Assembly: GCF_008298035.1 (NCBI RefSeq)
Contig: NZ_CP042910.1
Span: 2,743,001 to 2,807,000, forward strand
Source: Gimesia maris
GTDB taxonomy: Bacteria; Planctomycetota; Planctomycetia; Planctomycetales; Planctomycetaceae
DNA: 64,000 nucleotides
Reading direction: 5' to 3'
Made by a program: the position numbers and the translations under genes. The notes beneath the pieces are model-generated. The model saw nothing but the letters and a program-made list of their open reading frames with translations, was not told where the DNA came from and searched no databases. Of this stretch, positions 28,114 through 46,765 are shown piece after piece (position 1 is the stretch's first letter; every line of letters begins with the position of its first letter).

Positions 28114-28428
28114 ATGACCAGTTCCATCAGTCATATCGGTAACTCATTACTGCCCGGTCTTTCACCGGCGGGGCTCAAAGATGCAGGGGCTGGCACGCCA
28201 GCCGGCGCCCCTTCATTTCAGAATATGATGTTACAGTCTCTGGACAGTGCCAATCAGTTACAGCTTCAATCGGAGCAGGCGATTCAGGCGGGGCTCCTGG
28301 GAGAAGATATTACTCAGGCCGAAGTCTTTTCCTCGATCAAGAAGGCAGATCTGGCTCTGAGAATGATGGTTCAAATGCGAAATAAACTTCTGGAGGCTTA
28401 CAACGAGATCCAGAAGATGCAAATGTAA
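28114..28428 (+). CDS. fliE: Flagellar hook-basal body protein FliE
   Basis: FliE joins the MS-ring to the rod. The 104-residue protein ends with the family block VFSSIKKADLALRMMVQMRNKLLEAYNEIQKMQ. GGGAAGGGAA precedes the start. It stands between flgC and fliF, as in most flagellar gene clusters. Confidence 0.94.
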   Translation: MTSSISHIGNSLLPGLSPAGLKDAGAGTPAGAPSFQNMMLQSLDSANQLQLQSEQAIQAGLLGEDITQAEVFSSIKKADLALRMMVQMRNKLLEAYNEIQKMQM

Positions 28429-33386: not shown

Positions 33387-33839
33387 ATGAAGAAATTTCA
33401 ATTTCAATTTGAATCAGTGCTCAAAATGCGACGGCATAAACGCAGTATGTGCCGTCAGCTGCTGGGGGAGATGCTCCAGACTGACCAGCGATTGATTGAT
33501 CAGGCCGAGCAACTGAAACAGCATCGCTCAGAACAGTTTCAGGAAATCCGGGTCCGTCAGTCCGAAGGGCGGGTGGATATTGATGGGACGACCAGTTTAC
33601 GGTATTACGCTGGCCAGTTGCAGACTCAAATTCAGTCGGTCAACACAAACCGGGAGCTAATGGGGAAACAGATTGTCCTCTGCAGACAGGCTTTGGCCAA
33701 GGCCGAGCAGGAAGTCAAAGCCATGGAAAAACTGTCTGATAAACATCGCGAAACATTTCTCTATGCACAAAACCAGAAAGAAATGGTTGAGCTGGAAGAA
33801 ACCTGGTCAGCCACACAGCAGACAGGAGGTTATCAATGA
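33387..33839 (+). CDS. fliJ: Flagellar export protein FliJ
   Basis: FliJ is the coiled-coil stalk of the export ATPase. The 150-residue protein starts MKKFQFQFESVLKMRRHK, the usual FliJ opening, and is nearly all helical with heptads. ATG 33387 has a GTGAG purine stretch just upstream and fits the family better than GTG 33372. Its stop overlaps the next ATG (ATGA, 33836-33839), giving translational coupling with the MotE-like gene. Confidence 0.85.
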   Translation: MKKFQFQFESVLKMRRHKRSMCRQLLGEMLQTDQRLIDQAEQLKQHRSEQFQEIRVRQSEGRVDIDGTTSLRYYAGQLQTQIQSVNTNRELMGKQIVLCRQALAKAEQEVKAMEKLSDKHRETFLYAQNQKEMVELEETWSATQQTGGYQ

Positions 33840-34486
33840 TTCGTCCTCTGGTTGTCATTATCTGTGTATTTTGCGTGGCGACGATCATCTCGGAGATTCT
33901 CGGGCTCAGTTATTTATGGGTTCGCGGTCATCTGAATGCGGATTCTGTCAAAGACATTCGCATGATCGTGACGGGGCAGTCACTGGATGACGTGGAATTA
34001 GTTGAGGAAGAAACCAGTCTGCCCTCACGTGATGAAGTTGCAGAAACACGGGCCATGCGAATTCTGGAATTAGCAGCGCGCGAAGATGAAATCGAGTTGT
34101 TGAAAAGTTCGATTACGGAATCCTCCGATTTTCTCAAAAAAGAGCGACTGGTTTTTGAAGAGGCGAAAAAGAAGTTTGAAGAGGAACTGGAAATTCTGAA
34201 AGAGAAGAGTCAGAATGTCGCTACAAAGAAAACGCAATCTGTACTGGTTGCATTACCCTCCGGAGATGCAGTTCAATATCTGATGCAGCTTTCCATTGAA
34301 GAAAATATTGAACTGTTGAAAGGGATGGAAGGTAAGTTCATCGCCAAGCTCCTGAAAGAGTTCCTGGTCGCTCCTGACCCACTGGTCATCAAACGCGGGA
34401 AAGAGATTTTCAAAGAGATTTCACAGGATGAACCGTTTCGCAGCTTCTCTGACGGTGCATTAGACAAACTGTCCCAGAATAATTAG
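33836..34486 (+). CDS. MotE-like / MgtE-N-domain flagellar protein
   Basis: A 216-residue protein with an N-terminal membrane helix (about 3-26), a long charged helical middle (about 55-135) and a C-terminal MgtE-N-like segment with alternating hydrophobics (LMQLSIEENIELLKGM, FIAKLLKEFLV). This is the layout of MotE, the chaperone/stator-associated protein often found after fliJ. It overlaps fliJ by four bases. Homology beyond this architecture is not certain. A role in stator assembly or motor function is inferred from position. Confidence 0.6.
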   Translation: MIRPLVVIICVFCVATIISEILGLSYLWVRGHLNADSVKDIRMIVTGQSLDDVELVEEETSLPSRDEVAETRAMRILELAAREDEIELLKSSITESSDFLKKERLVFEEAKKKFEEELEILKEKSQNVATKKTQSVLVALPSGDAVQYLMQLSIEENIELLKGMEGKFIAKLLKEFLVAPDPLVIKRGKEIFKEISQDEPFRSFSDGALDKLSQNN

Positions 34487-42453: not shown

Positions 42454-43353
42454 ATGATTCGTCTTTGTAATTTAACTCTGCTGGCCTTATTGTGCTCTCT
42501 GATTTGTACCCCTCTCGTGCATTCAGCAGACAATCCTGCCTTTACGCAACCTGCGGAATTTCGTAATCAGAGTCATACGTCAGAGCGGTACCCGCAAAAA
42601 CATCAGCAACGGATGCAAAGCGGAACAACGCGACCAGTGGTACAAACCAGCCGGACAGGTTCTGTTTCCGATTCGAAGACGCTCAACGGTACAAGAACTC
42701 AGACATTGCTTCCGCGGAGTGGAGCCGATGTGCGGAAGTCCGAGTCCAATCCCATCACTCCTTTAGAGCGTCAGAAGCAGCCGGTTTCGGGCTCTTCAAG
42801 TCAAACTCTCAGTAAGCGGGCTCCCTCGATCTGGGGGACATTCGGTGCATTACTGGTTGTGATTTCGATTATCCTGGTGGGGGCAAAGTTATTCAAAAAG
42901 CATCATCCGCTCGGCTCAGCGGGCTTGCCTCGTGAAGTGATGGAAGTGCTGGGAAAGAAACCACTGGATGCCCGACAGACCATCCATTTCGTGCGGTGTG
43001 GGTCCCGGATTCTGATCCTGGGTTCCTCTCCCGCCGGGCTGGAAATGCTCAGTGAAGTAGTAGATCCGGTCGAGGTCGATCTGATAACGGGTATGTGCCG
43101 GGAGGACGCTGAGTCATCTCGAGCGGCGAATTCATTTCTCAACCTGTTTCAAAGCGTACAGAAAAAAGAGGAGCCACGTTTTACTCGACCGGCAACGGAA
43201 CCGTTTCAGAACACTGAAGAATCAGAACCTGCTGGAACACCAGAGCAGGAACCGTTTTCAGATTATGACTCGGCAGTGAACCGTTTACAGCAGAAACTGC
43301 TGCATTCCCCTCGTCAGTCCCTGAATGAGCGTGCGGAGTCCGATCATGCATAG
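42454..43353 (+). CDS. fliO: Flagellar biosynthetic protein FliO
   Basis: FliO is an assembly factor for the FliPQR export gate. From ATG 42454 (AAAGGA upstream) it has 299 residues: a signal peptide (about 1-24, ending LVHSA), a Ser/Thr/Arg-rich extracytoplasmic stretch, a membrane helix near 129-147 ([17 protein letters not shown]) and a cytoplasmic domain with the FliO pattern [31 protein letters not shown]. The open frame from 42346 lies inside fliN and is not used. It overlaps fliP. Confidence 0.86.
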
Positions 43354-44317
43354 CCGGGGGGGCGTTCCAAACCTGATCACAGCTAAGATGACCGAAGCAG
43401 CAGTCCGAATTCTGCTGCCGGTACTGGTCATGCTCTGGCTGGGACTGTCTGCGCAGAGCGCCCAGGCACAGCCAACTCCCTCCAGTCAGGCTTTATCCAA
43501 TCAGGGAGTAACCAGCCAGAACCCGACTCAAGCACCGGTTCAGCCGGTATTCATGTCTCAAGACAACCAGCAAGGGGGCGCGGGTGTGCCTGAGATGCTG
43601 GATGTCGAACAGATGACATCTCCACAGGGGCTGAATTCGACACTGAAGCTGTTTTTGCTGCTGACAGTATTGAGCCTGGCCCCTTCGATTCTGATAATGA
43701 CGACGAGTTTTATCCGTTTCGTGATCGTGTTCGGGTTACTGCGTCAGGCGCTGGGAACCCAGCAACTGCCTCCCAACCAGGTACTGACAAGCTTAAGTCT
43801 GTTTCTGACAATCATGGTGATGGCACCTATCTGGGAAAAAGCATATGAAGAGGGCATCGTGCCTTACACCAATCAGACTCAGCAGGCACCGGTTTCACTC
43901 GAAGCTGCTTTTCAGAAAACGGTAGCACCCCTGCGGAAATTTATGAGTGATCAGATTGAGTTAACGGGCAACAGCGACACCGTCTGGATGTTCCTGGATT
44001 ACCAGCAGCCTCTGCCAGGTTCACCCGGGGCTGAATCGTATCAGCCACCCCGGGACTATGATGAGGTGCCACTGACGGTTTTATTACCGGCCTATATGTT
44101 GAGTGAAGTGAAGACGGCCTTTCTGATCGGTTTTCAACTGTATCTGCCGTTCATTGTGATCGATATGGTGATCAGTTCCATCCTGATCAGCATGGGGATG
44201 ATGATGCTGCCGCCCGTTCTCATTTCCTTACCCTTTAAAATTCTGTTGTTTGTTTTGATTGATGGCTGGTTACTGACAGTCGGGATGTTACTGGAAAGTA
44301 TCAGGGCCGTCGGTTGA
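43346..44317 (+). CDS. fliP: Flagellar export gate protein FliP
   Basis: FliP is the core subunit of the FliPQR pore. The 323-residue protein has a cleavable-type signal segment, a Gln/Thr/Pro-rich linker, then the FliP core with [28 protein letters not shown] and the C-terminal membrane segments [23 protein letters not shown] and [15 protein letters not shown] use ATG 43346, which has CGGAG 7 bases upstream and overlaps the fliO stop by 8 bases. ATG 43325 or 43388 are alternatives. Confidence 0.95.
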
Positions 44318-44368: not shown

Positions 44369-44635
44369 ATGGATACATCCACTGTTCTCGATCTGGGACG
44401 TGAAGGATTACTGATCATGCTGGAAGTCAGTGGCCCGGTCATGCTGACTGCTGTTGTGGTCGGCCTGGTGATCAGTATTGGACAGGCTGTCACTCAGATT
44501 CAGGATCAGACCATCAGTTTCGTTCCCAAAATTATCATGATGGTGCTGGCGATCCTGTATACGCTGCCCTGGATCACCTCATTAATGGTGGAATACAGTA
44601 CGAATCTGATTACCAATATTCCGACACGTCTTTAA
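44369..44635 (+). CDS. fliQ: Flagellar export gate protein FliQ
   Basis: FliQ is the 88-residue two-helix subunit of the export gate. The GREGLLIMLEVSGPVMLTAVVVGLVISIGQAVTQIQDQTISFVPK stretch is typical, in which AVTQIQDQTISFVPK forms the family's inter-helix motif. The family is highly conserved, and the position between fliP and fliR confirms the call. CAGGTAAAAG precedes the ATG. Confidence 0.94.
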   Translation: MDTSTVLDLGREGLLIMLEVSGPVMLTAVVVGLVISIGQAVTQIQDQTISFVPKIIMMVLAILYTLPWITSLMVEYSTNLITNIPTRL

Positions 44636-44673: not shown

Positions 44674-45663
44674 GTGAGCGAACTCCTCGATCAATATGTG
44701 ATGAATCCGATCCTGCAGCTGGCTCCGGGACAGCTGCTGCAGTGGGCAATGCTGCAGTTTTATGCGTTTACGCTGGTACTTGTACGAATCAGTGGTCTGA
44801 TGATTATCGGACCTGTCTTCGGTCAACCGATTTTTCCCACGAATATCCGGATTCTGCTGATCCTGAGTCTGTCGCTGCTTATTACGCCGACGTTGCATGA
44901 CCAGACGACGGTCGGCTTTTATCAACTGGACAGCAACCAGGATCAGCGACTCAGCCAGGATGAAGTTCCGGAGCATCTGCAGGATCGGTTTGAGGATCTT
45001 GTGGTCACAGCAGGTCGCCAGGCAACTCGGGAACTGACAGTCAATGATTACCGGTTCGTGACGCGAATGCCGAATTCACTGCTGGATTATGCCTGGTCCA
45101 TCCTGGGGGAATTAACGTTAGGTTTTTCGCTGGGCCTGGGGATATATATCATACTACTCAGTCTGCAGATGGCAGGTCAGATGATCGATCAGCAGGCCGG
45201 GATGGCGCTGGGTGAAGTCTTCAATCCCGGTTTTGACATGAATGCTTCACTCAGTGGACAGTATCTGTATTTTATCGGGATCTCTGTCTTCCTGCTGATG
45301 GAACCGGTAAACGGTCATCTGTTAATGCTGTCGTCCCTGATTGATACCTTCCAGGTTTTTCCAGTAGGTGAAGGAATTGTATCTACGAATACGCTGGACC
45401 TGCTGCAGACGTTGATGCATCAGTCTCTGGTACTGTCGATTAAGGTGGCAGCCCCATTGCTGGCAATCAGTGCGTTAATCTCGATTTCGATGGGTTATCT
45501 CGGACACACGGTTCCCCAGATCAATGTACTGGTGATTGGTTTTCCCATTCGCGCAATGATCAGTCTGATCGTACTGGTTTTTACACTGTCGGGGGCTGCG
45601 GATATTGTTGTTGAATCCATTCCCTCTGCCATTGATCAGTTAAGCCGCAGTACCGTTTTATAA
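44674..45663 (+). CDS. fliR: Flagellar export gate protein FliR with an EF-hand-like insertion
   Basis: FliR is the single gate subunit that completes the FliPQR pore. The 329-residue length exceeds the usual 250-265. The extra residues lie between the second and third membrane helices (about 76-135). This insert contains DSNQDQRLSQDE at 86-97, a 12-residue match to an EF-hand calcium loop (D at 1, N at 3, D at 5, hydrophobic at 8, E at 12). The rest has normal FliR features, such as AGQMIDQQAGMALGEVFNP, FNGHL-like VNGHLLMLSSLIDTF, and VPQINVLVIGFPI. It starts GTG at 44674. Confidence 0.92.
   Translation: MSELLDQYVMNPILQLAPGQLLQWAMLQFYAFTLVLVRISGLMIIGPVFGQPIFPTNIRILLILSLSLLITPTLHDQTTVGFYQLDSNQDQRLSQDEVPEHLQDRFEDLVVTAGRQATRELTVNDYRFVTRMPNSLLDYAWSILGELTLGFSLGLGIYIILLSLQMAGQMIDQQAGMALGEVFNPGFDMNASLSGQYLYFIGISVFLLMEPVNGHLLMLSSLIDTFQVFPVGEGIVSTNTLDLLQTLMHQSLVLSIKVAAPLLAISALISISMGYLGHTVPQINVLVIGFPIRAMISLIVLVFTLSGAADIVVESIPSAIDQLSRSTVL
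44929..44964 (+). other. EF-hand-like calcium-binding loop inside FliR
   Basis: These codons encode D-S-N-Q-D-Q-R-L-S-Q-D-E, residues 86-97 of FliR. The positions that ligate calcium in EF-hands (1, 3, 5, 9, 12) are D, N, D, S, E. Position 6, usually glycine, is Q. The loop lies in the insert that lengthens FliR. Calcium binding is inferred from the pattern only. Confidence 0.55.
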
Positions 45664-45685: not shown

Positions 45686-46765
45686 ATGGCTGAGAATGAT
45701 ACAGGAGAAAAAACGGAGCAGCCCACGGATCGCCGGCGCAATGAAGCCCGCGAGAAGGGGAACATTGCGAAAAGTACTGACCTGAATGCAGCCGGAATGA
45801 TGCTGGCCACAGCGGCTGTCCTTTATTTCTTTGCTGTCAGACTGAGCAGTGATATGAAAAACCTGATGGAAGTTTCGCTGACGACTCCTGTCTGGCTGCG
45901 TGTCGATCAGCCCCTGCTCATCGAACGCTGTGAATCCATCATTGAACTGTTCCTGGAAGGGACGCTCGTAATGATGGTAGTGCTGTTTGTTTCTGCAGTT
46001 TTCCTGAATATCGTGCAGGTGGGGTTCATGATGACACCGGATGTGCTCCAGCTCAAGTGGGAACGTCTGAATCCGATCGAAGGTGCCAAGCGGATCATTT
46101 CGATTCGCGGGCTGGTCAAGCTGGGGGTGAGTCTCGGTAAAATCTCCCTGCTGGTACTGATTGCTGTCTGGTTCAGTTATCTGGTGTTTCCCGGTTTTCT
46201 GGGTTTGATGGGGGCGCCTCCAGAAACGATTCTACGTGACATATTTAATTCCACCATTGAACTGGGACTGCTGCTGGCACTGGCGTTGATCATATTGGGG
46301 GGACTGGATTATGCCTTTCAGAAGTGGAAGCATGAAAAAGACCTGATGATGAGTAAACAGGAAATCCGTGAAGAAATGAAGTCGATGGACGGAGATCCGT
46401 TGATTCGACAGCGGCGTCGGGAAGCACACCGGAAGCTTGCCATGTCGCAGGAACTTTCCAAGGTGGAGTCAGCGGATGTGGTGATCACGAACCCCACACA
46501 CATTTCGATTGCAATCAAGTACGATCCGGAATCGATGCCGGCACCGGTTGTGGTGGCCAAGGGAGCGGGAGAGATTGCTTTTCAGATCCGAAAGATTGCC
46601 AACGAACACGGAATTCCCATTATTGAGCGGAAAGCACTCGCACGCCAGATGTACCGCGATGTAAAAACCGGTCAGGAAATCCCCTTTGAGTTATATGAAG
46701 TCTTTGTCGAGATTATGGCCTACGTTTACAGCCTGACTGGTAAAACCATGCCGGATCAACGTTGA
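45686..46765 (+). CDS. flhB: Flagellar export switch protein FlhB
   Basis: FlhB controls export specificity through autocleavage. The 359-residue protein starts with a charged segment rich in Arg/Lys/Glu (TEQPTDRRRNEAREKGNIAKSTDL), then four membrane helices, then the cytoplasmic domain. The cleavage motif NPTH is intact in VVITNPTHISIAIKYD. The C-terminal ALARQMYRDVKTGQEIP block is conserved. It follows fliR at 22 bp and ends the flagellar run. FlhA, FlhF and FlhG, which usually follow, are not in the window. Confidence 0.95.
   Translation: MAENDTGEKTEQPTDRRRNEAREKGNIAKSTDLNAAGMMLATAAVLYFFAVRLSSDMKNLMEVSLTTPVWLRVDQPLLIERCESIIELFLEGTLVMMVVLFVSAVFLNIVQVGFMMTPDVLQLKWERLNPIEGAKRIISIRGLVKLGVSLGKISLLVLIAVWFSYLVFPGFLGLMGAPPETILRDIFNSTIELGLLLALALIILGGLDYAFQKWKHEKDLMMSKQEIREEMKSMDGDPLIRQRRREAHRKLAMSQELSKVESADVVITNPTHISIAIKYDPESMPAPVVVAKGAGEIAFQIRKIANEHGIPIIERKALARQMYRDVKTGQEIPFELYEVFVEIMAYVYSLTGKTMPDQR

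Follow-up and report, generated by a model that had tools for sequence, protein, structure and literature searches.

A predicted EF-hand pair inserted in FliR, a flagellar export-gate protein, in Gimesia maris and its relatives

The export-gate protein FliR of Gimesia maris contains a stretch resembling an EF-hand calcium loop, which raises the question of whether the resemblance is genuine and, if so, what such a loop might do in the gate. The gene lies at 44674-45663 on the plus strand of the window, by which we mean the whole 64,000-nucleotide stretch analyzed (positions 2743001-2807000 of a 7.8-Mb genome assembled as a single contig). It has a GTG start and encodes 329 residues (Pfam Bac_export_1, E value = 4.9 × 10−45), and the genome has no other FliR gene (one Bac_export_1 match). 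Besides the family profile, the window FliR has the expected operon place: on the same strand it follows fliP (43325-44317; Pfam FliP, E value = 7.2 × 10−72) and fliQ (44369-44635; Bac_export_3, E value = 2.6 × 10−26) and precedes flhB (45686-46765; Bac_export_2, E value = 1.3 × 10−115), and the order fliO-fliP-fliQ-fliR-flhB is common to the window and known systems. The flagellar cluster around fliR holds fliE, fliF, fliG, fliH, fliI, fliK, fliO, fliP, fliQ, and flhB. An AlphaFold2 model of the whole chain (87 sequences, mean pLDDT of 83.6) aligned with solved FliR chains (Z of 17.5 to 25; 25.1 to 9k29_F). The protein was 97% identical to its homologue in a Gimesia sp. MAG, and a genome-contig scan with it returned close Gimesia and distant clostridial/Bacillota FliRs only. 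Between fliJ and fliK, the cluster also has a 216-amino-acid open reading frame (33836-34486) with zero Pfam matches.

Residues 86 to 97 (44929-44964) read DSNQDQRLSQDE, exactly as in the original prediction, with the ligand residues that it had named at loop positions 1, 3, 5, 9, and 12 (D1, N3, D5, S9, and E12). The loop is of the EF-hand type and belongs to an insert of about 55 to 60 residues; the membrane segments said to flank it, the second and third, correspond to predicted helices 56-85 and 136-175. A strict EF-loop pattern matched FliR once and matched nothing else in the window (six-frame open reading frames of at least 100 amino acids, 30,562 residues). Since 0.16% of shuffled FliR sequences matched the pattern as well, the match in the single sequence, taken by itself, is only moderately surprising, and the isolated window insert reached an E value of just 0.03 against Pfam EF-hand_7. 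These two figures are what a chance resemblance in an unrelated insert has in its favor.

To see how the loop fared among homologues, FliR genes from across the window's family, class, and phylum were fetched and aligned. The loop was kept in 58 of 61 full-length family inserts and in 27 of 30 genera; the scan pattern itself demanded the ligand classes, and the unbiased conservation figure is the 58 of 61 inserts. When each genus was represented by a single sequence, position 1 was D and position 12 was E in 27/27, positions 3 and 5 were D or N only (27/27 each), and position 9 was polar in 21/27; position 8 was L, I, or V, and positions 2, 4, 7, and 10 varied freely. The hydrophobic core was also kept (F at −4, L at loop position 8, and P at +2). 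Within Gimesia, pN was 0.054 at ligand codons, 0.056 in the FliR core, and 0.15 in the remaining insert (15 sequences, saturated synonymous sites). Judged by these sequence comparisons, the EF-hand ligands are under selection. The refuting condition set in the original prediction, failure of homologues with the insert to keep the ligand residues, thus turned out in favor of the loop. In Gimesia, loop position 6 is Gln rather than Gly, which may weaken Ca2+ affinity.

A profile of 48 inserts was then searched against all PDB sequences and gave 508 distinct matches at an E value of ≤10 (best, 5.3 × 10−11); the best 60 of the 508 were all calcium-binding proteins or calmodulins. Single inserts matched the Pfam EF-hand models weakly (EF-hand_6 in 25 of 48; best E value = 3.2 × 10−4). 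In the full-length model, residues 56-122 form a helix, loop, short strand, helix, and strand, and residues 73-132 superpose on Frq2, caltubin, calmodulin, NCS-1, and troponin C at 2.0 to 2.4 Å over 53 to 56 residues, with Z scores of 6 to 7 that are modest alone, although the matches are consistent. Folded alone (71 residues, pLDDT of 77.6), the insert was predicted as two helix-loop-helix units with strands at 22-24 and 50-52, and its best Foldseek matches were all EF-hand proteins (probability mostly >0.9, with weak E values of 0.08 to 0.4). Conservation among homologues decides that the loop is no chance match; together with the structural alignment and the profile search, the persistence of the ligands across 27 genera leads us to reject that explanation as hardly conceivable.

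Profile and models alike indicate that the insert is a genuine EF-hand pair with an intact first hand and a degenerate second one. The identification of an EF-hand thus stands, while the single loop originally described is in fact one of two (residues 86-97 and 114-125). All parts of the pair lie on the plus strand. The entering helix of hand 1 (residues 74-85; 44893-44928; part of model helix 56-85 and helix 4-15 of the stand-alone model) runs on from the preceding long FliR helix and leads into the canonical loop 1. The exiting or linker helix follows (residues 100-113; 44971-45012; seen in the full-length model and as helix 30-42 in the stand-alone model) and then the degenerate loop 2 (residues 114-125; 45013-45048), whose strand 50-52 pairs with strand 22-24 in a predicted beta bridge between the hands at loop position 8. 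The second exiting helix starts at residues 126-131 (45049-45066; stand-alone model), and position 13, in this helix, was F, Y, W, or L in 27/27 genera. Loop 2 has no acidic ligands at positions 1, 3, and 5 in the window FliR; across the 27 genera its position 8 was always hydrophobic and its position 12 was D or E in 20 and Q in 5, but no conserved ligand set was seen.

The pair resembles members of the EF-hand superfamily (calmodulin, NCS-1/Frq2, and troponin C; PF13499) in its beta-bridged helix-loop-helix units and loop 1 ligands. It differs from them in that it sits inside a protein of a membrane complex, borrows a continued FliR helix as its entering helix, and has a degenerate second hand. 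Dockerin-type repeats are paired F-hands without an entering helix and carry Asp at loop position 12; they were ruled out by the Glu at that position in 27/27 genera and by the entering helix in the models. Glu at position 12 is also a mark of Ca2+ over Mg2+, and its constancy makes Mg2+ the less likely ion. Ca2+ binding at the predicted site is very likely, and there is good support for the inference that hand 1 holds one ion. Among 20 further window proteins, no other EF-hand was detected in the flagellar cluster at an E value of ≤0.01.

The same data bear on whether a metal is needed at all. The insert might be a partner-binding scaffold, a module for helices of FliE, FliF, or FlgB in which any metal is incidental: binding of amphipathic helices is common among EF-hand pairs, conservation extends to the hydrophobic core positions, and the ligands of hand 2 are already gone. 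However, no positions of the insert are more conserved than ligands 1, 3, 5, and 12, and the exchange of D for N only at positions 3 and 5 is left unexplained if no metal is bound. We consider an ion-independent scaffold unlikely.

Where the domain sits was judged by homology to solved gates. Residues 64-100 and 173-245 of FliP are the structural counterparts of residues 18-55 and 71-155 of FliR, and the periplasm-facing level of the gate includes the N-terminal half of FliR (PMC8239009). From these counterpart helices it follows that the insert replaces a short FliR loop matching the FliP periplasmic domain, and a cytoplasmic placement was rejected on the same homology (PMC8239009). In Salmonella, FliR Phe-66 contacts FliE Met-84, and opening of the exit gate has been proposed to follow from the docking of FliE (PMC8546590). 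By alignment, the EF-hand insertion point lies just before the segment matching Salmonella P64-W72, which includes Phe-66; in the window FliR this segment would be residues 133-141 (45070-45096, plus strand), the residue-level equivalence resting on the alignment and that structure (PMC8546590). The insert is thus placed, with good support, at the FliE contact on that side of the gate which faces the periplasm and the rod, and it may touch FliE. The proposed docking partner would be the product of fliE at 28114-28428 on the plus strand (read from its open reading frame; Pfam FliE, E value = 1.4 × 10−20 at genome positions 2771186-2771425).

Compared with Salmonella FliPQR (FliR/SctT family PF01311; 6F2D, 7BIN, and 9K29), the window FliR shares the core fold and the place in the operon. 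It differs in its extra EF-hand pair, between the equivalents of Salmonella residues 63 and 64-71, where the loop of described FliRs is short. The FliP periplasmic domain occupies the equivalent place between the homologous FliP/FliR helices, but its sequence is unrelated to the FliR insert. The FliP periplasmic segment measured 76 to 83 residues in genomes with the EF-hand versus about 64 to 72 in many relatives of the class and phylum; that of the window FliP (43325-44317) is about 10 to 18 residues longer than in many other Planctomycetota. A coupling of FliP length to the EF-hand was considered and dropped for lack of a clear link, the segment being as long in EF-hand-free members of genera g52 and g57 and 84 to 95 residues long in some other families.

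A search of 5.39 million open-access papers gave no description of an EF-hand in FliR or in any export-gate protein; the component families are known, and as far as could be searched their combination is new. Few parts of flagella and injectisomes are as conserved as the FliPQR gate, and here a single insertion at the FliE-contact point of its single-copy FliR has been kept in at least 27 genera. A domain of known ion chemistry offers a handle on the coupling of gate and rod, as well as a case in which the involvement of calcium in type III export can be put to the test.

Next, we looked into how the insert is distributed. In class and phylum surveys of about 490 genomes, which overlap with the family set, the insert was located in the window's GTDB family only, within a vertically inherited FliR lineage; all FliR matches listed outside the family spanned at most about 741 bases versus about 830 to 885 in carriers. 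In a FliR tree built without the insert columns, the family splits into this vertical lineage, placed with other Planctomycetia and comprising all EF-hand carriers, and a second, insert-free lineage; the deep branches of the tree have weak support. The simplest reading of these sequences is that the insert was gained once, near the base of the vertical lineage, and later lost several times. Inserts of about 35 to 76 residues without an EF loop occur at the same place in genera g35 (L160-L173) and g31 (L075, L092, and L165), and these intermediate inserts are apparently decayed EF-hands. The second FliR lineage corresponds to a second flagellar cluster (fliE, fliG, fliI, fliQ, flhB, motA, and motB), found at L189 (G040), L191 (G048), L192 (G042), and L193 (G026), which in some genera coexists with the vertical cluster or replaces it.

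The presence of the EF-hand was then compared with that of the axial structure in the 61 genomes represented by vertical-lineage FliRs. FliE was present in 39 of 40 genomes with the EF-hand versus 2 of 21 without it (Fisher test without phylogenetic correction, P value = 1 × 10−12), and the one carrier without FliE is a 1250-contig assembly. The association is clumped on the tree: only three independent contrasts lie on supported branches, and although all run in the same direction, they are too few to be significant. In a subset of 40 genomes, flagellin and rod/hook domains were found in 24/24 carriers; of the 16 noncarriers, 13 had no FliE, flagellin, or rod/hook domains, 1 had flagellin only, and 2 had all of them. 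Genera g52 and g3 have full flagella and no EF loop. FlhA and FliR were kept in the noncarrier genomes tested, as were FliO, FliP, and FliQ where inspected. The EF-hand is thus lost together with the axial structure while the gate stays, which favors a role at the joint of gate and rod over a role in the pore, and this matched loss reveals planctomycetes with an export gate and no flagellum.

The losses also invite the reading that the domain was captured once, has no present use, and is now disappearing, with the decayed long inserts of g35 and g31 as its remnants. Purifying selection on the Gimesia ligand codons contradicts this, as does the near confinement of losses to genomes without FliE and axial genes, and we hold such a vestige to be very improbable.

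The periplasmic, rod-side placement and the loss in axial-less relatives both speak more for a function in structure or assembly at the FliE/rod junction than for a Ca2+ valve. The account that we favor, at roughly even confidence, is that Ca2+ acts structurally here and braces the joint of gate and rod. An EF-hand-pair domain would have been gained in the loop between the FliP-like helices of FliR in the Planctomycetaceae lineage, where by homology it would lie beside the FliE-docking segment, on the distal (periplasmic) face of the FliP5Q4R1 gate. Periplasmic Ca2+ is normally high and steady; since it tracks the medium, hand 1 would hold its one ion more or less permanently. The bound ion would stiffen a platform on which FliE and the proximal rod, or the MS-ring wall, are docked or oriented at the ring's single FliR position; this platform may have an open groove that binds helices. 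Against this account, the loop is not indispensable, as the flagellated genera without it show, and its loss in axial-less genomes may reflect general relaxation only.

A refined form of the idea behind the original prediction, a calcium-responsive gate in which Ca2+ binding or release near the FliE contact switches exit-gate opening or rod initiation, draws on the canonical, regulatory-type loop with its invariant Glu12, on a position matching the FliE contact to which opening of the Salmonella gate is ascribed (PMC8546590), and on the way in which a single-copy FliR breaks the symmetry of the ring. In seawater, however, periplasmic Ca2+ would be about 10 mM, enough to keep an ordinary EF-hand constantly saturated. 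Two intact, cooperative sites are usual in calcium sensors; the FliR pair has one intact hand, and the degenerate hand 2 makes cooperative switching unlikely. With the Ca2+-rich periplasm and the loop-free flagellated g52 and g3, this argues against a general, indispensable calcium valve, and we regard a responsive gate as doubtful. A variant is perhaps a checkpoint that the distal face truly meets the Ca2+-rich periplasm: the domain would fold only there, let FliE dock, and so allow the gate to open and the rod to start. We think this rather unlikely; if true, type III export would be licensed by calcium beyond the membrane in bacteria with the domain.

As for the origin of the domain, the genome is rich in EF-hands, with 18 EF-hand-pair matches, several in multihand proteins (for example, 3253257-3253667 and 3897597-3898109). 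The protein with the latter match, a 384-amino-acid frame, has a nearly identical loop (FQQLDKNSDGTVTADEVPQDKERFFDHL versus FYQLDSNQDQRLSQDEVPEHLQDRFEDL). Unlike FliR, these proteins are multihand and are not parts of the export gate, and given the very similar sequence they are a likely source of the domain.

Several observations concern the axial-less relatives themselves. FliE, flagellin, and rod/hook domains were undetected in genera g35, g31, g4, g46, g7, and g28 and in one g57 genome, all of which keep FlhA and fliR. The five axial-less loci read (L221, L222, L223, L224, and L225) contain fliO-fliP-fliQ, some with flhB; in G135 (L221, G135:C1:6716000-6735900), fliOPQR has only housekeeping genes around it. 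Three axial-less FliPs visibly carry the M-gasket motif, as GMMM or a close variant. By gene content, such loci look like a flagellum-derived export gate that has outlasted its axial structure, perhaps a nonflagellar exporter. Lastly, G010 (genus g11; assembly 79% complete) has three flagellin_N matches in a row on contig C88 (E value = 2.8 × 10−42), with FliE and rod/hook domains undetected.
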